Of a stretch of DNA of 29,388 bases, positions 1 through 29,388 are shown in pieces; the stretch's first letter is position 1, and each line of letters opens with the position of its first letter. The position numbers were made by a program, and so were the translations under genes. The stretch is from a virus. The notes beneath the pieces are model-generated. The model saw only the letters and a list, made by a program, of their open reading frames with translations. It was not told where the DNA came from and did no database searches. The stretch covers positions 1 to 29,388 of the IMG/VR virus record IMGVR_UViG_3300034072_002217; one strand, 5' to 3'.

Positions 1-111
1 CTTGGTCTGATGAGAGTGGATAAACACGCCGCGCAAATAATAGCGCGTCTCCTCGCTCGAGATAAAGGCGGAGACAATGCGGAAAAGGTTGGCGTTAACG
101 GTGGTAGTCAT
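1..111 (-). CDS. DNA polymerase III beta (sliding clamp)-like protein, N-terminal fragment, runs off window
   Basis: Reading the minus strand from an ATG at 111 gives 37 codons open to the window edge. A good Shine-Dalgarno (AAGGA) sits about 8 nt upstream. The peptide starts MTTTVNANLFRIVSAF and continues EETRYYLRGVFIH. The (E)TRYYLNG(V/I) signature is typical of the middle domain of bacterial DnaN beta clamps (the E. coli equivalent is DVRYYLNG), and I recall clamp-like proteins in alphaproteobacterial phages starting directly at this domain. If so, the protein would be a shortened clamp or clamp decoy acting on the replisome. It points away from the structural genes and has a shared operator-like motif about 23 nt upstream, so it probably belongs to an early, repressor-controlled leftward unit. 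Only 37 residues are visible, so the family call is moderate. Confidence 0.6.
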   Translation of the reverse strand, partial: MTTTVNANLFRIVSAFISSEETRYYLRGVFIHSHQTK

Positions 112-133
112 AGCTCGATCCTTTTGTTGAGCG

Positions 134-155
134 GAATAACTCTGAAAAATCTACA
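134..155 (-). promoter_or_regulatory. Operator-like motif copy A upstream of the clamp-like gene
   Basis: Read on the minus strand the site begins TGTAGATTTTTCAGAG. It shares about 17 of 22 positions with the copy at 26200-26221 and has the same nine-base core (TGTAGATTT) as the copy at 402-423. It ends about 23 nt before the clamp-like start codon, a usual place for an operator or promoter. I see no clear sigma-70 -35/-10 pair with standard spacing inside it, so it may be a repressor or activator site. Confidence 0.45.
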
Positions 156-237
156 AGCAAGGCGACAGGCAAAGGTATCACTGCTTGCGCCTTCGCCGCG
201 CGTTGTCGGGCATTTACACTTTCGTGGTGTTGGGGTT

Positions 238-248
238 TGTCTAAGACA
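238..248. promoter_or_regulatory. Perfect 11-bp palindrome, possible regulator site
   Basis: TGTCT-A-AGACA is a perfect inverted repeat in the non-coding region about 130 bp upstream of the minus-strand clamp-like start. It resembles a small dimeric repressor site, but only one copy was noticed, so support is weak. Confidence 0.2.
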
Positions 249-401
249 GTAACCGTTCCCCAACGCGACACCTCGACGTTCGGTGCCTAACGCGCCTTTG
301 TTGTAGCTTGGCGCTGCTCTGACCGGCTGTTATGGCCTACGGTTCATGCTGGCCTTCAATCTCAGGTCTTAGGTCTGTCTGCCCTTTGTCCCTGTCGATG
401 A

Positions 402-423
402 TGTATATTCTCATAAATCTACA
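402..423 (-). promoter_or_regulatory. Operator-like motif copy B, imperfect palindrome
   Basis: On the minus strand the site reads TGTAGATTT, then ATGAGA, then ATATACA. It matches the 26200-26221 copy at about 18 of 22 positions. This copy is itself an imperfect inverted repeat (TGTAGATT facing AATATACA), as expected for a dimeric HTH repressor such as the one encoded at 28924-29388. A degenerate copy lies 18 bp away on the other strand at 442-463, making a divergent pair. Confidence 0.45.
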
Positions 424-441
424 GTTTTGGCAATAGGTGCG

Positions 442-463
442 TGTAGAAAAATGAGAGAAAAAA
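442..463 (+). promoter_or_regulatory. Degenerate operator-like motif copy D
   Basis: TGTAGA, four other bases, then TGAGAG appear at exactly the same register as in the copy at 26200-26221, giving about 14 of 22 matches. It is on the plus strand, back to back with copy B. The A-rich surroundings raise the chance of coincidence. Confidence 0.25.
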
Positions 464-2106: not shown

Positions 2107-3913
2107 TGCTGTGCGTAGGCTCTTCGCCGATGTTGCGAAGAGTTTCGTGCCGCCTCCCGTCATGTCCTACTCAGAGTGGGCAACTGACCACTTTCAGATG
2201 TGGGGCAGCGGCGGTGACGGCAGCCCGTTCCGGCCATGGAAGTTTCAACGCGGCATCTTGGATGCGATCGGTGATCCTGTCATCGAGCGCGTGTCGGTTA
2301 TCAAATCGGCTCGTACCGGGTACACGGTCTCGCTCGTAGCGGCGATCGCAGCAATCGCGGCCAATGACCCTGGCCCTATCATGTTGCTGATGCCAACGGA
2401 CGACGACGCCCGCGGCATTGCAGTCGACGAAATCGACCCAGCGTTCCGAAACAACCCGCACATCAAGGGCCTGTTGGTCACCGGGCGGTTTGACGGACGT
2501 AACACGTTGACGCAGCGCTCGCTGGCCGGCGGTGGTTCGCTCAAGATCAATTCGGCACGCTCGCCGAACAATCTGCGCCGTCACACGGTGCGGACGCTCT
2601 ATTGCGACGAAGTCGACGGCATGAAGCCGACGGCTGAAGGCGACCCATTGGTCCTGGCCGAGAAGCGTACGCTCTCGAAAGCTGACCGAAAGATTGTTTA
2701 CGGCTCGACCCCGACCGACGAAGCGACGTCGATCATCTCGAAGAAGTACCTCGAGTCTGATCAACGCATCTTCGAGGTGCCGTGCGAAGCGTGTGGCCAG
2801 TTCTTCGAAATGCTCTGGGAGAACCTGTCCTGGAAGCGCGGCGATCCTGAGTCAGTTCGGTGCATCTGCCCGCACTGCAAAGAGCCGCTTGAAGAAAAGT
2901 ACAAGCCAAAAATGGTTGAAGACGGCGAATGGCGCGCGACGCGTCCGCACGTCAAAGGCCATGCCGGTTTCCGGCTCAACGCGCTGATCTCGCAATTCGC
3001 GAATGCCTCCTGGCCGAAATTGGTCGAGGAATACGAGAAGGCTGAGAAGAACGGCGCGACGGAAATGCAAGGCTTCCAGAACACTGTCCTCGGACGTGTC
3101 TGGTCCGCAGCTATCGACCACGTCAACGAAAACCAGTTGATGGCGCGTCGCGAACAGTTCGGGCTCGTATGGGATCACGCACGAAACGCTTGGCGCGAGG
3201 ACATCCCGGAGGATGTGGCTTACATCACAGCCGGAGTGGACGTTCAGCCAGATCGTCTCGAAGTTCTGTTGCTGGGTTGGTCACGGAACCATCGGTACAC
3301 CTTGGGTCACATTGTGATCCGCGGGTCTGCGCTCTTGCAGACGACGTGGGACGAGCTCGATGCTCTGTTGAGCACTGTCTGGAAGCACCCGCTCGGAGGT
3401 GAGATCGGTATCGAAGCGGCTTGCGTCGACTCCGGCTACCTGTCCCAGAAGGTCTATGACTACTGCGAAGTGGTTCAAGGCCGGAAGATCGTTGCCATCA
3501 AGGGCGATGAAGGCCCGCGGCCGATCTTGAAGGCTTCGAAAACGAAACGGCGCAATCGCACGGCGACCCTCTACATCGCAGGTGTCGATCAGGTGAAGAC
3601 GGACATTCTGGTGTCTCTGCCGCTCGGCAACGGTGACCAGAATTCGATCCGGTTCAGCAACACGCTGGAGGAAGAATTTTTCCTGCAGCTGACCGCTGAG
3701 CGGCGCGAAATCAAGCTCAAGAACGGGAAGCCGGAACCGGCCTTCGTTCGAATTCAGAACCGAAAAGCAGAAGCACTCGACACGATGGTCTACGCCATCG
3801 CGGCGAAACAACTGTGCCGGTTCGACTACGACAACCGCTACGACCAACTCAGAAGCGCTGGCAAACCCAAGCGCCCAAGTCTGAAGGAGTTGGCTGCAAA
3901 ACTGAACAGGTAA
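2096..3913 (+). CDS. Terminase large subunit, GpA family
   Basis: The 605-residue protein is a lambda gpA-type packaging ATPase-nuclease (lambda gpA is 641). The P-loop variant KSARTGYT is at 70-77, as in other GpA proteins (KSAxxGYT). The Walker B is LYCDEVDG with D171 and E172. A probable zinc knuckle has CEAC at 230-233 and CPHC at 258-261. The C-terminal nuclease domain starts about 375, with an acidic strand ITAGVDVQPDRLEV (D382) and a second acidic strand CVDSGY. It pumps DNA into the prohead and cuts at the packaging site. A GpA terminase predicts cohesive genome ends. The ATG at 2096 sits inside the end of the small-subunit gene. Confidence 0.92.
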   Translation: MSNSAVRRLFADVAKSFVPPPVMSYSEWATDHFQMWGSGGDGSPFRPWKFQRGILDAIGDPVIERVSVIKSARTGYTVSLVAAIAAIAANDPGPIMLLMPTDDDARGIAVDEIDPAFRNNPHIKGLLVTGRFDGRNTLTQRSLAGGGSLKINSARSPNNLRRHTVRTLYCDEVDGMKPTAEGDPLVLAEKRTLSKADRKIVYGSTPTDEATSIISKKYLESDQRIFEVPCEACGQFFEMLWENLSWKRGDPESVRCICPHCKEPLEEKYKPKMVEDGEWRATRPHVKGHAGFRLNALISQFANASWPKLVEEYEKAEKNGATEMQGFQNTVLGRVWSAAIDHVNENQLMARREQFGLVWDHARNAWREDIPEDVAYITAGVDVQPDRLEVLLLGWSRNHRYTLGHIVIRGSALLQTTWDELDALLSTVWKHPLGGEIGIEAACVDSGYLSQKVYDYCEVVQGRKIVAIKGDEGPRPILKASKTKRRNRTATLYIAGVDQVKTDILVSLPLGNGDQNSIRFSNTLEEEFFLQLTAERREIKLKNGKPEPAFVRIQNRKAEALDTMVYAIAAKQLCRFDYDNRYDQLRSAGKPKRPSLKELAAKLNR

Positions 3914-3921
3914 GGGCCGGC

Positions 3922-5637
3922 ATGGGCATTCGCGACAGGATCGGCCGGTTCCTGAACGGCACAGCTGTGGAATCGGCAAAGCCAAAGACAGCGTTCTTCA
4001 AAGGCGAATCCAGCCCGTTCCTCGTCTCCTGGCGTCCTCGGCTGCGCGACCAGCAGCAGGATATTCAGGCGGCATGGGGTAGGTCCGCTGCGAGAGCGAT
4101 CGACGCCGTTCAGAACAGCGGCTTCATGTCCGGCATCGTGGAAGTGGCATCGGCCAGCACTGTTGGTTCCGGCCTTCGGATGGCCTGCCGTCCAGACCCT
4201 GACGTCTTGGGTTGGAACTCGGAGCAGGCTTCGAAGTGGGCACGACAAGTTGAAGCGCGTTTCCGTGCCTGGGCCAATAACCCTTACGAATGCGACGCTG
4301 CCGGTCAGATGACCTTCGCCCAGATGCAGCAGGCGGCGTTCGCCAGCTATATGACCTACGGCGAGATCCTGGCCCTGTTGCCTATGATCCGTCGGCCTGG
4401 CGCGGCATCTTTGACCAAGGTCTCGATGCTGCCACCGACACGCCTCGTTGACTACAACGACGCGTTCTCCGGTTGGGTTCAAGGTGTCAAGACCAACGGC
4501 GATGGCCTGCCTGTCGCATACCGCTTCCGTCAACGAGATAAAATTCTCGGCTGGCAGGAGAGGGACATCGCTGCACGCGACGCCGATGGTCGTCCGAATG
4601 TTGTCTTGATCAAAGATCCGGCACCAGCAGTCACGCGGGGTATCTCGCCGTTTGCGCCGGTGCTGAAGGTCACACGCCAGGTCGATCAGTATTTCGACGC
4701 AACGCTGACGTCGGCGATGATCCAGACGATTTTTGCCGCGACCATCAAGACCAACATCAACGGTCTTGCGGCTTTCGACGGTTTGATGACCAACGGCGAC
4801 ACAGGCGCTCTCAACGTCGAGGCATACGCCGAGGCAAAAGGCGATTTCTACGCTGGTGCAAACATCGATCTGACGCAGCACGGGCGTATCGCACACCTGT
4901 TCCCGAATGACGAACTGGAGTTCACCGAGGCAAAGCAGCCTGGTCAGCAGTTCGACCACTTCATGGGCTGGTTGCTCCGCGAAATCGCGCGCGGTGCGGG
5001 CGTGACCTACGAAAACGCCACCGGCGACTACCGCGGCGCCACCTATTCGAGCGTCCGCATGGCTGGCGCTGTCGAATGGCTCACGGTTCTGCGCCGTCGC
5101 GATAACCTGATCATCCCGTTCTGCAAAGCTGTCTTTGACACTTGGCTCGACGAAGAGATCGGGGCGGGGAGGCTGGAATTCCCCGGCGGCTACGAGAAAT
5201 TCCTGTCCATCCGCGGGGTCGGTGTTCGCTCGACGTGGACCGGACCGGCTCGACCACAGGCTGACGACTTCAAAACCGCTCGTGCTTATCAGGTGCGCAA
5301 GGACATGCAGTCGACAACCCTGGCCGAGATCGGCGAGGAATACGGTCGCGACTGGGACGACGATATGCGCCAGCGCAAGGCCGAGAACGATCTTGCAGAT
5401 GAGCTTGGCCTGCCGCGTCCTTGGGCACCCACAGACATGATCGAGACACCGGAAGGGCAGGAACTTGCTCTAAAGGATCCCGGTGATGGGGCGGGTGAGA
5501 AGCGTGACCCGAAGCGCCCACAGCGTAGCGGGCAGCGCGACCCCGGTGAGCGCGATCCGGCAGAGTCTTCGCTCGAGGGCGATCTCGACGCAAAGCTTGA
5601 GGCTGATCTGAGCAAGGACGAACCCGATGGCGATTGA
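3922..5637 (+). CDS. Portal protein, lambda gpB-like
   Basis: This 571-residue protein belongs to the lambda portal family (gpB, 533 residues). It forms the dodecameric ring through which DNA enters and leaves. Recognisable segments are the N-terminal WGRSAARAIDAVQNSGF block, VGSGLRMACRPD, and the mid-domain with GWLLREIARGAGVTYENATG followed by YSSVRM. The C-terminal 80 residues are charged and low in complexity (many E, D, K, R, P), probably a disordered tail. I chose the ATG at 3922, 8 bp after the terminase stop, over an upstream in-frame codon at 3814 that lies inside the terminase gene. It overlaps the following connector gene by 11 bp. Confidence 0.9.
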   Translation: MGIRDRIGRFLNGTAVESAKPKTAFFKGESSPFLVSWRPRLRDQQQDIQAAWGRSAARAIDAVQNSGFMSGIVEVASASTVGSGLRMACRPDPDVLGWNSEQASKWARQVEARFRAWANNPYECDAAGQMTFAQMQQAAFASYMTYGEILALLPMIRRPGAASLTKVSMLPPTRLVDYNDAFSGWVQGVKTNGDGLPVAYRFRQRDKILGWQERDIAARDADGRPNVVLIKDPAPAVTRGISPFAPVLKVTRQVDQYFDATLTSAMIQTIFAATIKTNINGLAAFDGLMTNGDTGALNVEAYAEAKGDFYAGANIDLTQHGRIAHLFPNDELEFTEAKQPGQQFDHFMGWLLREIARGAGVTYENATGDYRGATYSSVRMAGAVEWLTVLRRRDNLIIPFCKAVFDTWLDEEIGAGRLEFPGGYEKFLSIRGVGVRSTWTGPARPQADDFKTARAYQVRKDMQSTTLAEIGEEYGRDWDDDMRQRKAENDLADELGLPRPWAPTDMIETPEGQELALKDPGDGAGEKRDPKRPQRSGQRDPGERDPAESSLEGDLDAKLEADLSKDEPDGD

Positions 5638-20220: not shown

Positions 20221-22452
20221 ATGAAGACATTCATCGGCCAGCTGATCTTCCGGCTGCGCACTGAAGGCCTCGGTGAGACCAAGAAAGTCACCGACGCCAT
20301 GCGGAATGTCGAGGCCGCTGCAAAGCGCCTCGGCAGTACCGGTACCGGCACCTGGGGTGTCGGCTTTCAGCGTCAGATCGACAAGCTCAAACTCACTGCA
20401 GACGAAATCAAGCAGGTTGAACGAGCCTGGATCCAGCTCCATTCTTCCATGCGTAGCCGTAACCTGTCGGGCGCATTGAAAAGCGCCGAGGTGGGTCATT
20501 GGAAGACGAACACCATTTCCGCACTGGCCCAGAGCCGCGCTGAAATGGAGCGCCATTTCCACGAAGCCGAGAAATCGGCTCGCGGCCATTCCAAGCGCAT
20601 GCAGGATATTCTGAAGCCAGCGCTTGTCATGTTGGGTGCCTACACCGTCCCTTACCTCACGGGTGTGATGGGGCAGGAGGCGCTGACCGCATCGTCGGAA
20701 AGGCGTCGGGAAGTCTTTCGGCAACGGATGGCCGGGATCTCTCCGAAAGATCAAGAAACACTTTTCAGCAAGTCGGAGGAGATCGGGCGTCAGTACCCAT
20801 CCGTTCCGATTACCGGGATCATGGAAATGGCCCGGAGCGCTTTCAGCGTCATGGGTGACGCCGAGCGGGCAGTAGGTATTGTTGAGCGCATGGCGCAGGC
20901 GCTTGTCGTCTTGCAGAGCGCTCGCGGCACAGACGCCGCCGCTCGTAACCTCATCGGCCTTATTCGCGGCCTCGACAACCTTGGCGTCAACAAAGACGGC
21001 CAGCAGGGTATCGACCAGGTCAACGACATGATCGACGCTGCAACTCGCGCCGCCCAGGTTGATCCTGATTTCGATGCTGAGAAATTCTTCCAGTTTGCCA
21101 GAGCGACGAAGACTGCCGGACCTGCACTTAGCATGGACTTCCTCGCGCGGTCACCAGTGTTCATCCAAGACGGCGGCGACGGAGCAACCGGCAACGCCTT
21201 GGCCATGGGTTTCCGGGCTTTTGCATTGGAAGCGGTTGGCTCTGCCGGCGGTAAGAAGTACTTGAACGAGCGCGACCGCATCGGCATTCGGAAAAATGGC
21301 AAGCTCGTTGACGAGAACCTATTCGGATCTGACCCCGACAAATGGGTTCTCAAGTACCTCGTGCCAGCTTTGCAAAAGGATGGGGTCGACATGAACAACG
21401 ACACGGCTGTTGCGGCCGCTGTCGGCAGGCTGTCGGGCAACACTACGGCAACGGGCTTTCTGACTCGAATCATCACGCAGCGTGAGCAGATCGAACGTTG
21501 GCTCAAGCTGATGGACGGCACGAAAGGCACAGAGATCGCCAAAGACGTCCGTTACGAAGATCCGTTCGTTGGTTGGGAGTCTTTCAAAACGTCCTTGCAA
21601 AACTTGTCCGCTGCGCTGGTGCCGATCGACGCTATCAATGCCGGTCTCAACGCTTTGGCAAACGGCATCAACATGTTGGCGAACGTAGCCAAGGACAACC
21701 CAATGCTCACGATGCTCGGCATCGGGGCGACAGGCGTCGGTGCTTACCAGGGCGGCAAGTTCGTCATGGGCGCGCTTGGCGATCTGTTCGGCCTCAAATC
21801 CAGCGCTGTTGCGCTTGATGGGTCGGCTGCGGCGCTCACTCGTGCAGCAGTTGCTCTTGGTGGGGAATCCGTTGCGGGAAATCTGCCGGGAGACGGAAAA
21901 AAGCCTCCTAAAAAAGGAGGTGGCTTCTTTGGCCTGAACCCTTGGGCAGTTCTGACAGCTATCGGCGCGACCTTAAGCAGCGACACGCCAGTTGATCAGC
22001 AGACCAAAGACTGGAGAGACGACCCCCGCGCTGAACGGTGGATCAAAGAGCAACAGGAGCTCGAAGAAAAAGCTGGCGCAATCAGGATACCAGTGGCGAA
22101 GACCTTCCTAACCGGTCCTGCCGGAGGGACGAGTGGCGCGATTGAAATGGACGCAGCTCAGCGGGCGCGTGGTGCCGGCATGACTGCTTTCCCAGGCAAA
22201 GTCGCAGATGACCTCAACGTTGGGCTCAACAGCTTGGCAGAGCAAAGCCGAGTTGCAGGCCAACAGATTGAGCAAAACCTGTCGGTGACAGCAAAGCCTG
22301 AAGTGGACACGTCGGCGATCGACATGGCCATCGCGAAAGCAAGCAGGCTTTTGAGTCTGTTGCAGAATGTCGCTGGCGCTAGCGAGCGGGCAAACAGCAG
22401 CGTCAATGCTGAAATGCGGCGTAACTTCGCGGACGGCGGAGGAGGTTGGTAA
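20221..22452 (+). CDS. Tail tape measure protein (P2 gpT-like)
   Basis: The 743-residue protein sets tail length. It begins with helical segments (TKKVTDAMRNVEAAAKRLG), contains a long helical region, and has a hydrophobic stretch at about 490-530 (MLTMLGIGATGVGAYQGGKFVMGALG), as tape measures often have for membrane passage. The C-terminal 200 residues are helical and polar (ADDLNVGLNSLAEQSRVAGQQIEQ). It is the longest gene here, after the E/E' pair and before U, the P2 order. The family shows little conserved sequence, so position carries much of the call. Confidence 0.9.
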   Translation: MKTFIGQLIFRLRTEGLGETKKVTDAMRNVEAAAKRLGSTGTGTWGVGFQRQIDKLKLTADEIKQVERAWIQLHSSMRSRNLSGALKSAEVGHWKTNTISALAQSRAEMERHFHEAEKSARGHSKRMQDILKPALVMLGAYTVPYLTGVMGQEALTASSERRREVFRQRMAGISPKDQETLFSKSEEIGRQYPSVPITGIMEMARSAFSVMGDAERAVGIVERMAQALVVLQSARGTDAAARNLIGLIRGLDNLGVNKDGQQGIDQVNDMIDAATRAAQVDPDFDAEKFFQFARATKTAGPALSMDFLARSPVFIQDGGDGATGNALAMGFRAFALEAVGSAGGKKYLNERDRIGIRKNGKLVDENLFGSDPDKWVLKYLVPALQKDGVDMNNDTAVAAAVGRLSGNTTATGFLTRIITQREQIERWLKLMDGTKGTEIAKDVRYEDPFVGWESFKTSLQNLSAALVPIDAINAGLNALANGINMLANVAKDNPMLTMLGIGATGVGAYQGGKFVMGALGDLFGLKSSAVALDGSAAALTRAAVALGGESVAGNLPGDGKKPPKKGGGFFGLNPWAVLTAIGATLSSDTPVDQQTKDWRDDPRAERWIKEQQELEEKAGAIRIPVAKTFLTGPAGGTSGAIEMDAAQRARGAGMTAFPGKVADDLNVGLNSLAEQSRVAGQQIEQNLSVTAKPEVDTSAIDMAIAKASRLLSLLQNVAGASERANSSVNAEMRRNFADGGGGW

Positions 22453-26180: not shown

Positions 26181-26199
26181 CGAAATGTCTTGCATCGTT

Positions 26200-26232
26200 T
26201 GTAGATTTTTGAGAGTATATTGAAAACCTACA
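26200..26232 (+). promoter_or_regulatory. Operator-like motif copy C with wide inverted repeat, upstream of the protease operon
   Basis: TGTAGATTTT (26200-26209) faces AAAACCTACA (26223-26232), an inverted repeat matching at 9 of 10 positions with 13 bp between. The 22-bp left part matches the copies at 134-155 and 402-423. TTGCAT at 26190-26195 and TATATT at 26216-26221 could serve as -35/-10, but the 20-bp gap is long. It lies in the 125-bp non-coding gap before the protease gene, as expected for a repressed operon promoter. Confidence 0.5.
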
Positions 26233-26305
26233 GACCAACAGGGATCAAACAGAGAATTCACCCTGACGCGCCAATAGCGCGATCTTCCTCCAAGGAACAC
26301 CCCTT

Positions 26306-26926
26306 ATGCGCAGAGCAGTATTCGTCGGCTTGGCCGTCCTTGCAGTCGCATTCGGCATGGGCGCAGCAGCGACCCACGACCTCACTATATCTCCCGAACC
26401 TATGCTCAAGATCGAGCTTCCCAACGGTCACGGTTCCGGCTTCCACGTCGGAGGCGGCTACGTCTTCACAGCAGCACATGTTGTGAAGGGAGAGGCCAAA
26501 GTCGAAGTCTTGGCTTCTGATGGGCAAAAGGACACTGCCGAGGTGCTTTGGGTCAACGAGAAACGCGACGTAGCGCTCCTGCGGATGGAAAAGCTCCGCA
26601 CAAAAAGCGCTCGTCTTTCTTGTGTCGTGCCAACCGCTGGCGATGCGGTGGAGGCGAGGGGCAATCCCACCAATCTCACCTTTATCTCCACGTGGGGCCA
26701 GGTGGCGGGCAAAGCTTTGAGCGTCGGCCCATGGGAGAAGGTCGTCCCGGTCAGCATGACGATTGTACCGGGTCAATCAGGTGGGCCTCTTTATGACCGC
26801 GCTGGTCGCGTCGTCGGAATGAACGTCGGAGTCATGGTTGTCCCGTTGGGCTTCGGCGGCTCTCTCGTCGGGATCGGGTACTCCGTTCCCGGCTCCACAC
26901 TCTGTGAACTCCTCGCGAAGGTGTAA
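26306..26926 (+). CDS. Exported trypsin-like serine protease
   Basis: The 206-residue protein starts with a clear signal sequence (MRRAVFVGLAVLAVAFGMGAAA). The serine protease core has the full triad: His58 in VFTAAHVV, Asp88 in EKRDVALLR, and Ser158 in PGQSGGPLYD. The GSGFHVGGGYVFTAAHVV and GQSGGP blocks are typical of DegP/trypsin-like S1 enzymes, without a PDZ domain. It should act in the periplasm or outside. AGGAA precedes the ATG. Placed after the lysis genes but with its own operator-like motif, it could be a lysogenic-conversion factor, a processing enzyme, or an aid to lysis. The catalytic call is firm; the role is unknown. Confidence 0.85.
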   Translation: MRRAVFVGLAVLAVAFGMGAAATHDLTISPEPMLKIELPNGHGSGFHVGGGYVFTAAHVVKGEAKVEVLASDGQKDTAEVLWVNEKRDVALLRMEKLRTKSARLSCVVPTAGDAVEARGNPTNLTFISTWGQVAGKALSVGPWEKVVPVSMTIVPGQSGGPLYDRAGRVVGMNVGVMVVPLGFGGSLVGIGYSVPGSTLCELLAKV

Positions 26927-26927
26927 T

Positions 26928-28253
26928 TTGCCAACTCCTCCTATCTCAGAAGTCGAGCGCCAACGGCGCAAGGCAGCCGTAGAGGCTGCGCTCCGTGACG
27001 GGTTCGCGCCCTACAAACAACATGGTGGCCGGGGCAGCAGCGCGCAGGAAGCTGCGCGTCGTCTCGGCGTCACCAGCAACAAGATTGAGAGCTTCCTCCG
27101 GACTGAGGCAAAGCTGGCGGAAAACGGATCGCCGAACTACCTGCCGGATTGGAGCCTTTTTGCTTCGATCGAGGAGCCGGTCGTTGATCCGAAAGCAGCT
27201 CGTGTCGAGAAGCTGGACGCCACGTTCTGGCGCAAGAAGGCGCTGGATACTGAAAAAGAGCTCAGCAAGGCGGAGCATCGCCTCGAACAGATCTCCGGTT
27301 TGCGGGACACGCAGTTCGCTATCCCTGACTGGCTGTTGCGGGAAAGCTCCGGCCGTCGCGGCAAGTCGGTCATCGGGTGCCTCGTCTCCGACGTGCATGA
27401 TGGCGAAGTCATCTCGGCTGAAGAGATCAACGGCATCAACGCTTTCAATCCAGAGATCGCTGAGAAGCGCATGAACCGCTACTACTCTGCGGTCTGCACC
27501 ATTGGCCAGCGCTGGGCTGATGACACCGAATGCAAGGGTGTCCTGCTGGCCTTGGCCGGTGACTTGATGTCAGGCGACATCCACGAAGAACTCAGGATTA
27601 CCAACGCGCTGACCAGCCAAGAGCAGTGCATCCATTCGACGTCCATCCATGTCGCAGGAATCAGGCTTCTGCTCGAAACCTATGGCGCCGTCCATGTCGT
27701 GGGCGTTCCCGGCAACCATGGCCGTTCGACGCATAAGCCGACGGCCAAGATGTACGCGCGGCTGTCCTACGACAATCTGATCCTCGCAATGATCGAGAGC
27801 CACTTCGAGAAAGATCCTCGGGTCACCTTCCAGTATGGCGCGGCCAAGGACCAGATGACGCCTGTGTTTGGTCGGACAGTCTTTACGACGCACGGCGACA
27901 AGATCGGTACGAAAGGCGGCATGGGATTCGCTGGACCGGTGCTGCCGATTGTTCGTGGATCGAAAAAGATCGAAGCGCAGCAGGCAGGCATCGGTCGTCG
28001 CCCGGACTTAATTCAATTTGGGCATTACCACACCACGGCTAACCCCGGAAATATCCTGGCCAACGGCTCAGTGCCCGGCTACTCGGAATACGCCGACGAC
28101 CTTCGCGCTGTGATCGAGCCTCCTCAGCAGTGGGCGTACCTGCTGCACGACAAGTGGTGGCTACGCGAGCGCATGCCCATTCAGCTTGAAGAACCCGCAA
28201 CGCCTGCCAAGCCGAGGGTCTCTGTGCCCGCAGGCTGGAGCCAGGCGGCATAA
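26928..28253 (+). CDS. Metallophosphoesterase with N-terminal helix-turn-helix
   Basis: The 441-residue protein starts at TTG 26928, 1 bp after the protease stop, with GAAGG upstream. Earlier in-frame codons lie inside the protease gene. Residues 10-60 form a HTH-like segment (GGRGSSAQEAARRLGVTSNKIESFLR), then a charged linker. The calcineurin-type phosphoesterase domain (about 147-400) has SDVHDGE (Asp155, His157), AGDLMSG (Asp212), PGNHGRS (Asn263, His264), FTTHGDK (His322) and FGHYHT (His366, His368), the full two-metal set. Substrates in this family range from nucleotides to nucleic acid. It could be a nuclease or nucleotidase tied to DNA through its HTH. It is followed by a dNMP kinase 11 bp later. 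Confidence 0.85.
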   Translation: MPTPPISEVERQRRKAAVEAALRDGFAPYKQHGGRGSSAQEAARRLGVTSNKIESFLRTEAKLAENGSPNYLPDWSLFASIEEPVVDPKAARVEKLDATFWRKKALDTEKELSKAEHRLEQISGLRDTQFAIPDWLLRESSGRRGKSVIGCLVSDVHDGEVISAEEINGINAFNPEIAEKRMNRYYSAVCTIGQRWADDTECKGVLLALAGDLMSGDIHEELRITNALTSQEQCIHSTSIHVAGIRLLLETYGAVHVVGVPGNHGRSTHKPTAKMYARLSYDNLILAMIESHFEKDPRVTFQYGAAKDQMTPVFGRTVFTTHGDKIGTKGGMGFAGPVLPIVRGSKKIEAQQAGIGRRPDLIQFGHYHTTANPGNILANGSVPGYSEYADDLRAVIEPPQQWAYLLHDKWWLRERMPIQLEEPATPAKPRVSVPAGWSQAA

Positions 28254-28264
28254 GGAGGCAGACA

Positions 28265-28858
28265 GTGCAGGCAGCATCTATAATCGCAGTTGAGACGTTC
28301 GGCCAGTTGGACTTCTATGAACCGGAAACCTTTGGCGAGTGGCCGAAGGTCGTCGCCCTTAGTGGCGCAGCTGGTTCCGGCAAGTCGACGGTCAGCTCCT
28401 ATCTTTCGACAAAAGGCTACACGCTGGTAAAGTTTGCCGGTCCACTGAAGTCTATGTGTCGCGCTGTCGGTCTCACCGACGAGCATATCGAAGGCTCGCT
28501 GAAGCAGGAGCCTTGCGCGCTGTTGCAGGGCAAGACCCCGCGCCAGTTCATGCAGTGGCTCGGAACAGAGTTCGGTCGCGATTTGATCGGCCCGAGGTTC
28601 TGGACCGATCTGTGGAAGGCGAGGGCCGAGGCGATCTTGGCGGCGGGCGGTCGGGTTGTCGTCGATGATTGCCGGTTCGAGAACGAAGCCGAAGTTGTCC
28701 GTTCTATCGGCGGTGTCGTTATCCGGTTGACGGGCCGCGGCGGAATCGCGGGTGGCCATTCGTCTGAAAGCCAGACCTGGCCGGCGGATGATGAAGTTGA
28801 AAACACCGGCTCAATTGTCGAGCTGCATCGCGCTGTTGCGGAAGCCCTGCGCTACTAA
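28265..28858 (+). CDS. Deoxynucleoside monophosphate kinase
   Basis: The 197-residue protein uses GTG at 28265 with GGAGG 6 nt upstream. It has a P-loop, ALSGAAGSGKST (31-42), a TPRQFMQWLGTEFGRDLIGPRFW block typical of phage dNMP kinases of the T4 gp1 type, and a Walker B-like VVVDDCRFENEAEVV that starts the lid/base-recognition part. It would phosphorylate dNMPs for DNA synthesis during infection. As the last gene of the protease-phosphoesterase unit it lies far from the structural genes in function. It ends before a strong hairpin. Confidence 0.85.
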   Translation: MQAASIIAVETFGQLDFYEPETFGEWPKVVALSGAAGSGKSTVSSYLSTKGYTLVKFAGPLKSMCRAVGLTDEHIEGSLKQEPCALLQGKTPRQFMQWLGTEFGRDLIGPRFWTDLWKARAEAILAAGGRVVVDDCRFENEAEVVRSIGGVVIRLTGRGGIAGGHSSESQTWPADDEVENTGSIVELHRAVAEALRY

Positions 28859-28923: not shown

Positions 28924-29388
28924 TCAGTCGATGTCGTAAATTATTGCAAGAAGCTCCTTCATGCGCTCCTTTTTCACCCGCTGGCCAATTAGATTGACTT
29001 GCTGGTAGCGCTCATCCTCGTCGTCCCTGACTTCAAGGCCGGGCCGCATCATCTCTGTGACGGATGGCAGACCGCGAACGCCGCGTAGACCTCTGCTCGG
29101 CAGCAGGTCTTCCTCAGAAACGTTCAATGCGCGGGCCAATGCGGCCAACCTTTCCGGATTAGGTAGCGTCTCGCCTCGAATGTATTGGCTGACGGAGTCT
29201 CGGCCGAAGTGTTTCCCCAATTGAATCGAGGCGACGCGAGCAAGTTCGCTCTGTGAGTATCCCTTGTCCATCATGGCCCGCTGTAGGCGTTTGCCGAACT
29301 CAACTCGAGCCAAATCAGAACCTGCATTCTCAGGGAGTTGGCTGGGCGCACCGTTGTGGAACGAGGTGCCTCTCGGGGTCTTGGCCAT
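28924..29388 (-). CDS. XRE-family transcriptional regulator, probable phage repressor
   Basis: The 154-residue protein on the minus strand begins with an ATG at the window edge, so a longer upstream start cannot be excluded. A helix-turn-helix lies at about 32-95: FGKRLQRAMMDKGYSQSELARVAS, DSVSQYIRGETLPNPERLAALARAL, then VSEEDLLP, the typical XRE end. A polar N-terminal extension of about 30 residues precedes it. The C-terminal part is short and charged (DDEDERYQQVNLIGQRVKKERMKELL), without an S24 peptidase domain, so self-cleavage on DNA damage is not expected. It is likely the lysogeny repressor, with the repeated motif near the early genes as a candidate operator. Confidence 0.78.
   Translation of the reverse strand: MAKTPRGTSFHNGAPSQLPENAGSDLARVEFGKRLQRAMMDKGYSQSELARVASIQLGKHFGRDSVSQYIRGETLPNPERLAALARALNVSEEDLLPSRGLRGVRGLPSVTEMMRPGLEVRDDEDERYQQVNLIGQRVKKERMKELLAIIYDID

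Follow-up and report, generated by a model that had tools for sequence, protein, structure and literature searches.

A 22-bp motif recurs in non-coding gaps ahead of three gene groups of an uncultured virus and at like places in its closest relative, and for this reason we regard it as a genuine phage control site. As to its function, we favour, at slightly better than even, the reading as a lineage-specific dyad operator for a phage regulator, repressor-like, which lies in promoters at two of its copies (B and C) and may form a road-block at a third (A). The device is ordinary in kind, within a little-studied phage.

The virus is represented by record IMGVR_UViG_3300034072_002217; "the window" denotes the whole stretch of 29,388 bases analysed here. 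Its genes include those for a lambda-type GpA terminase and a portal protein; the GC content is 59%, and only about 7% of the window is non-coding. Relatives of the terminase (40-71% identity) are found in Mesorhizobium, Rhizobium, Microvirga, Ancylobacter and other, mostly alphaproteobacterial, genomes; judged by where these relatives sit, rhizobial prophages are its nearest kin. Since most long viral records among them measure 60-68 kb, about half of the phage genome, the early half, is probably absent from the contig, together with any further regulator encoded there. The closest relative, contig L007, has a large terminase 91% identical to that of the window and spans the homologous control region plus 2.6 kb of leftward early genes.

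The genes that matter for the argument are the following.

1..111, minus strand: 5' end of a sliding-clamp gene (DNA polymerase III beta-like), first 37 codons, cut at the contig end; the unit downstream of copies A and B
26306..28858, plus strand: unit downstream of copy C, consisting of the next three genes
26306-26926, plus strand: trypsin-like protease, 36% identical to p036 of Rhizobium phage 16-3
26838-28253, plus strand: exonuclease/phosphoesterase, start uncertain
28265-28858, plus strand: dNMP kinase
28924..29388, minus strand: XRE/HTH_3 repressor-like protein, start codon at the contig edge, its own promoter beyond the contig

The first of these, originally described as clamp-like, could be identified as a DNA polymerase sliding clamp: over 29 residues the fragment shares 59% identity with p081, the homologous processivity factor of phage 16-3, and further homologues occur in RHph_TM3_3_14B and AmM-1.

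Four copies of the motif were proposed in the window, and the elements that we assign to them are as follows.

134-155, minus strand: copy A, 22-bp motif, TGTAGATTTTTCAGAGTTATTC
125..155, minus strand: copy A, dyad TGTAGA-N19-TCAACA; clamp ATG 44 nt downstream, good -35 element absent
402-423, minus strand: copy B, 22-bp motif, TGTAGATTTATGAGAATATACA
393-423, minus strand: copy B, dyad TGTAGA-N19-TCGACA
393..433, minus strand: copy B, putative leftward promoter TTGCCA (428-433)-N17-GAATAT (405-410)
26200-26221, plus strand: copy C, 22-bp motif, TGTAGATTTTTGAGAGTATATT
26200-26232, plus strand: copy C, 33-bp inverted repeat, TGTAGATTTT..AAAACCTACA
26190..26232, plus strand: copy C, putative promoter TTGCAT (26190-26195)-N17-GAGTAT (26213-26218), protease unit downstream
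442..463, plus strand: copy D, TGTAGAAAAATGAGAGAAAAAA, weak, divergent and back to back with B

The positions and sequences of all four copies are as originally given, as are the match counts of C against A (17/22) and against B (18/22), and each copy does lie in a gap, in a window where such gaps are scarce. Counting both strands, the window has TGTAGATTT three times: at A (155, minus), at B (423, minus) and at C (26200, plus). The protease start is 106 nt from C and the clamp start about 300 nt from B. Copy D belongs to a conserved A-rich block and may alternatively be an UP-like element or another part of the upstream region of promoter B.

A position matrix was built solely from three L007 sites and used to scan the window (about 58,700 positions) along with 200 Markov shuffles. 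The four copies took ranks 1-4, with 26.4 bits for C, 23.0 for B, 20.8 for A and 15.6 for D, all four in non-coding sequence. The best score in any shuffle was 16.9 bits and the observed third-best score was reached in none of the 200, which makes A, B and C secure against chance; the score of D, taken alone, falls inside the range of shuffle maxima. The fifth-best match (25964, plus strand) lies within an open reading frame and, at 13.2 bits, is at noise level. The coding relative L004 gave no comparable match. In the reverse direction, the six L007 sites that scored best with a matrix from the window were 2663-, 602-, 342-, 2368-, 1870- and 1180-, all on the minus strand, upstream of leftward genes and oriented with transcription. 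They stand approximately 25-65 nt ahead of six leftward gene starts, several of them directly behind the preceding gene. Together with A, B and C, all of these sites point towards the downstream gene. The block around B is conserved at L007 2633-2673 as an island within an otherwise diverged region, and the whole block of D is conserved as well (2681+, TGTCGAAAAAAGAGAGAAAA). As both matrix directions agree, the motif is real, common to two phages, and non-random in place and orientation.

Beyond these two contigs the motif was not recovered. Pattern scans of viral contigs returned L009, which is unrelated, and later L007 together with an unrelated contig of 32% GC (L063); a genome search at the level of the order added two more, L064 and L065, which have the same unrelated context, and among more distant terminase relatives nothing convincing was found for the same motif. 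As the other matches are unrelated, these searches leave the motif with two carriers, the window and L007. It is lineage-specific and narrow, with two known contigs among the searched viral contigs and the sampled genomes of the order.

A wider dyad, TGTNGR-N19-YCNACA, has the 22-mer as its better half; in C the spacer is N21. After TGTAGA, an inverted second half-site follows at 19 bp in A (TCAACA) and B (TCGACA) and at 21 bp in C (CCTACA). The remark that B is an imperfect palindrome was therefore right but understated, the full dyad being 31 bp and also present at A, and so was the 10-bp inverted repeat noted at C, which extends to a 33-bp dyad. In the window, TGTNGR-N19-21-YCNACA picks out exactly A, B and C; shuffles contained 0.23 matches on average, two at most, and three in 0 of 300, figures that are somewhat generous given that the pattern was picked after the sites had been seen. 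Such dyad half-sites, the mark of a dispersed repressor operator of temperate phages (lambda/16-3 type), are lacking at L007 602-, 342- and 2368-, where the second half is absent.

Copies B and C, as well as the L007 equivalent of B, carry TTGC ten bases ahead of the motif and fit a sigma-70-like promoter frame, TTGCnn-N17-GARTAT, with the motif in its spacer, with TTGCCA..GAATAT at B, TTGCAT..GAGTAT at C and TTGCGC..GAGTAT at L007 2673-. A search for the string TTG-N7-YGTAGA returned just B and C from the window, for which shuffles average 0.14, and just the equivalent of B from L007. The -10 hexamers GAATAT and GAGTAT are weak, and a standard promoter scan called no promoter at B or C.

The sequence itself shows that the motif exists, is conserved and oriented, and has a dyad and a promoter-like frame. 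On the reading that we favour, the 22-mer would be the main half of an operator of 31-33 bp, TGTNGRTTTTTGAGAG..., whose inverted half, YCNACA, follows some 20 bp further along. Binding of a protein, repression, and the XRE product as the protein concerned are what we infer. The operator would serve a DNA-binding regulator encoded by the phage, whose most likely role is repression of lytic genes. At B, ahead of the leftward early unit, and at C, ahead of the protease/exonuclease/dNMP-kinase unit, the motif would fill the spacer of a host sigma-70-type promoter, and a regulator bound there would therefore keep RNA polymerase out. Copy A and the copies just before downstream leftward genes of L007 are oriented with transcription and have no clear promoter; a regulator bound at these places could block elongation. 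Several observations count against the operator: the unequal spacing of the dyad, 19 in A and B versus 21 in C, the missing second half-site at the internal copies of L007, the weak -10 hexamers with no promoter call at B or C, and the restriction of the motif to two contigs.

The XRE protein is a plausible candidate for the regulator. It matches Pfam HTH_3 (E 6.6e-10) and the PHROG "transcriptional repressor" (1.1e-11), and its nearest phage homologue is annotated as a cro-like repressor beside an integrase. Relatives of it were not found among viral contigs, and tblastn with the XRE protein, the protease, the exonuclease and the kinase detected nothing in four full proviruses or in other relatives, so that the unit of C is not traceable there. 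The original prediction had spoken of a phage-specific regulon tying three units together, probably through this protein. What stands is a phage-specific motif common to the clamp/leftward early, main control and protease units, in good agreement with the cross-check in L007 and with a precedent in phage 16-3; the part of the XRE protein is kept at the strength given above. The original prediction did not include the extended dyad, the -35/-10 frame around B and C, or the co-directional placement close to gene starts in L007. For an uncultured phage with rhizobial prophages among its relatives, a regulon is thereby defined and checked against an independent relative, and joint switching of the clamp/early unit and the protease-exonuclease-dNMP kinase unit is predicted.

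The precedent is the following. Rhizobium phage 16-3 is, like the phage of the window, a temperate rhizobial phage with a homologous clamp and protease; operators of the C repressor (OL/OR) are marked in its record at PL and Pr. Its 60-kb genome (NC_011103) also contains seven exact copies of TTGACAAATTTGTA, mostly in promoter-like positions and unmarked in the annotation consulted.

NC_011103, plus strand: TTGACAAATTTGTA copies at 21503, 48798, 48949, 57198 and 57756
NC_011103, minus strand: TTGACAAATTTGTA copies at 33887 and 37779

The same sequence is found in RHph_TM3_3_14B (L070). As at B and C, the 16-3 copies show a TTG-N7-TGTA promoter-like frame, and one of them precedes the trypsin-like protease gene by 121 bp. 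A dispersed promoter-borne motif that covers a protease unit is hence not unusual in this kind of phage. The two systems differ in the sequence of the motif and the arrangement of half-sites, in the terminase (HK97-like in 16-3 versus GpA type), and in that the C operators of 16-3 are annotated whereas those of the window are predicted from sequence.

A second comparison is offered by the stoperators of Cluster A mycobacteriophages (L5, Bxb1), which are found at promoters and between genes, mostly in one orientation to transcription (PMC6550527). Placement in gaps and a single orientation relative to transcription are shared with our motif. Stoperators are, however, numerous and asymmetric, while the window has 3-4 sites in 29 kb, a count that could change with the missing half of the phage genome, and A, B and C carry a second, inverted half. 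Repressor bound to a stoperator ends transcription elongation; for A and the internal copies of L007 a road-block is what we infer. Phage and host are unrelated to those of the window.

An alternative, which we consider unlikely, is a start-associated element of the mRNA, i.e. a lineage-specific leader that tunes translation or mRNA fate of the early genes and has a counterpart in the RAUYGU hairpin described below. The placement of the L007 copies shortly before six leftward starts, several right after the preceding gene, would suit it, and start-associated sequences (SAS) are known from Cluster K mycobacteriophages (PMC3203893). There, SAS and their extended form, ESAS, are repeated in one orientation before a subset of non-structural genes; the ESAS is an imperfect inverted repeat with variable spacer, and the Shine-Dalgarno sequence, which stands 3-7 bp before the start codon, is part of the SAS (PMC3203893). 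Repetition, single orientation and an extended inverted repeat with variable spacer are thus common to both. Our motif, in contrast, begins about 25-106 nt or more from the start, only L007 602- and 342- extend into the Shine-Dalgarno region, and B and C have promoter-like frames and, at about 300 and 106 nt, are too distant from their starts for an element of this kind. The folds point both ways: C forms a strong hairpin (z -4.0 against shuffles) and L007 2368- forms UGUC-GAUUUUUAA-GACA, but A, B and L007 2663-, 602- and 342- are not unusually stable (z -1.1 to +0.9). If the dyad were an RNA stem, A, B and L007 2663 would have a mismatch at half-site position 4, which does not covary; this fits a protein-DNA contact better than a hairpin. 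A structured leader RNA in the 240 nt between B and A was also considered and is unsupported, as this stretch folds no better than shuffles (z -0.7).

The counterpart is present in related proviruses, where early genes of distant relatives carry a covarying hairpin at the same position. It has a stem of 3-7 bp, a closing C-G pair, a covarying outer stem and the loop RAUYGU, and stands just before the Shine-Dalgarno sequence.

L013/L028 (G012), 34976-38934: RAUYGU hairpin locus
G014, 29715-33914: RAUYGU hairpin locus
G013, 24687-30803: RAUYGU hairpin locus
G011, 2123-5539: RAUYGU hairpin locus
L014, L016, L017 and L018: further records with the hairpin

Where a hexaloop hairpin has an SD-like sequence and a start codon behind it, the commonest loops are AATTGT (11 of 14 such hairpins in this context) and GATTGT (8 of 9). 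When sites were chosen by loop and SD alone, all four flanking pairs were present in 24 of 104, where approximately 0.4 would be estimated if pairing were random. In an alignment of 27 rows, 94% of the cells pair, a value inflated by the selection of these rows for pairing; covariation is 0.849 versus 0.171 in shuffles, and slid controls collapse. Neither the window nor the hairpin region that was searched matched an Rfam family, and a literature search, largely without subscription papers, gave no account of the hairpin or of TTGACAAATTTGTA in 16-3. The RAUYGU start-site hairpin is apparently undescribed. It is a more novel by-catch than the motif itself and, being located in prophages of sequenced bacteria, is directly testable there.

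The hairpin is absent from the window and L007. A perfect small hairpin, CGCGC-CAATA-GCGCG, lies at 26267-26281 of the window, shortly before the protease Shine-Dalgarno sequence; it is reminiscent of the RAUYGU hairpin without matching it. Whether the motif is the lineage's version of a phage-wide control at early gene starts, for which sister phages use the RAUYGU hairpin and the phage of the window a directional DNA site, appears rather doubtful to us. If true, a single regulator may serve numerous gene starts and not just a few promoters.

About equally improbable is a directional promoter, read by a phage sigma factor or by the host polymerase with a phage activator, as in a middle-gene switch. 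It is compatible with the way in which A, B, C and the copies on the minus strand of L007 all point along with their downstream genes, and with the TATA-like hexamers (TATAWN) placed at an equal distance, 16 bp after TGTAGA, in B, C and L007 2663, the equivalent of B. A phage-sigma promoter is conceivable because 16-3-like phages encode such factors: 16-3 and RHph_TM3_3_14B, both with clamp homologues, have sigma-70-like proteins near the clamp. Related proviruses, however, lack homologues of the 16-3 sigma factors, and a sigma-r4 search of seven records yielded one match only, below threshold. Moreover, the TATA part is missing from A, D and L007 602- and 342-, and symmetric half-sites suit a dimeric regulator, as in the favoured operator, better than a sigma factor.

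Finally, a likeness between AT-rich gaps of a GC-rich genome that is due to chance or composition, for which the AT-rich copies and the shuffle-range score of D might speak, is extremely improbable and for A, B and C is rejected, given the ranks obtained with a matrix from a separate phage, the shuffles, the lack of a comparable match in L004 and the orthologous conservation of B and D.

Comparison of the control region with L007 revealed three conserved islands, namely the B/D region, a likely rightward promoter and, ahead of the terminase genes, a block rich in GC. The second is given here.

653-683 (L007 2882-2912): likely rightward promoter, TTTGACAG..TGAGCACTCTT..GCATATA

This block is probably the rightward promoter of the terminase/structural unit. 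Further on, at approximately 875-930 of the window, TAGGGACCGTACG ... CCCGCGAGGCGCGGCCTCGCGG is conserved in L007, and a core GGGACCGTA is also found in L005, L008 and L013 ahead of the terminase genes. It is possible that the block at 875-930 represents the cos region.
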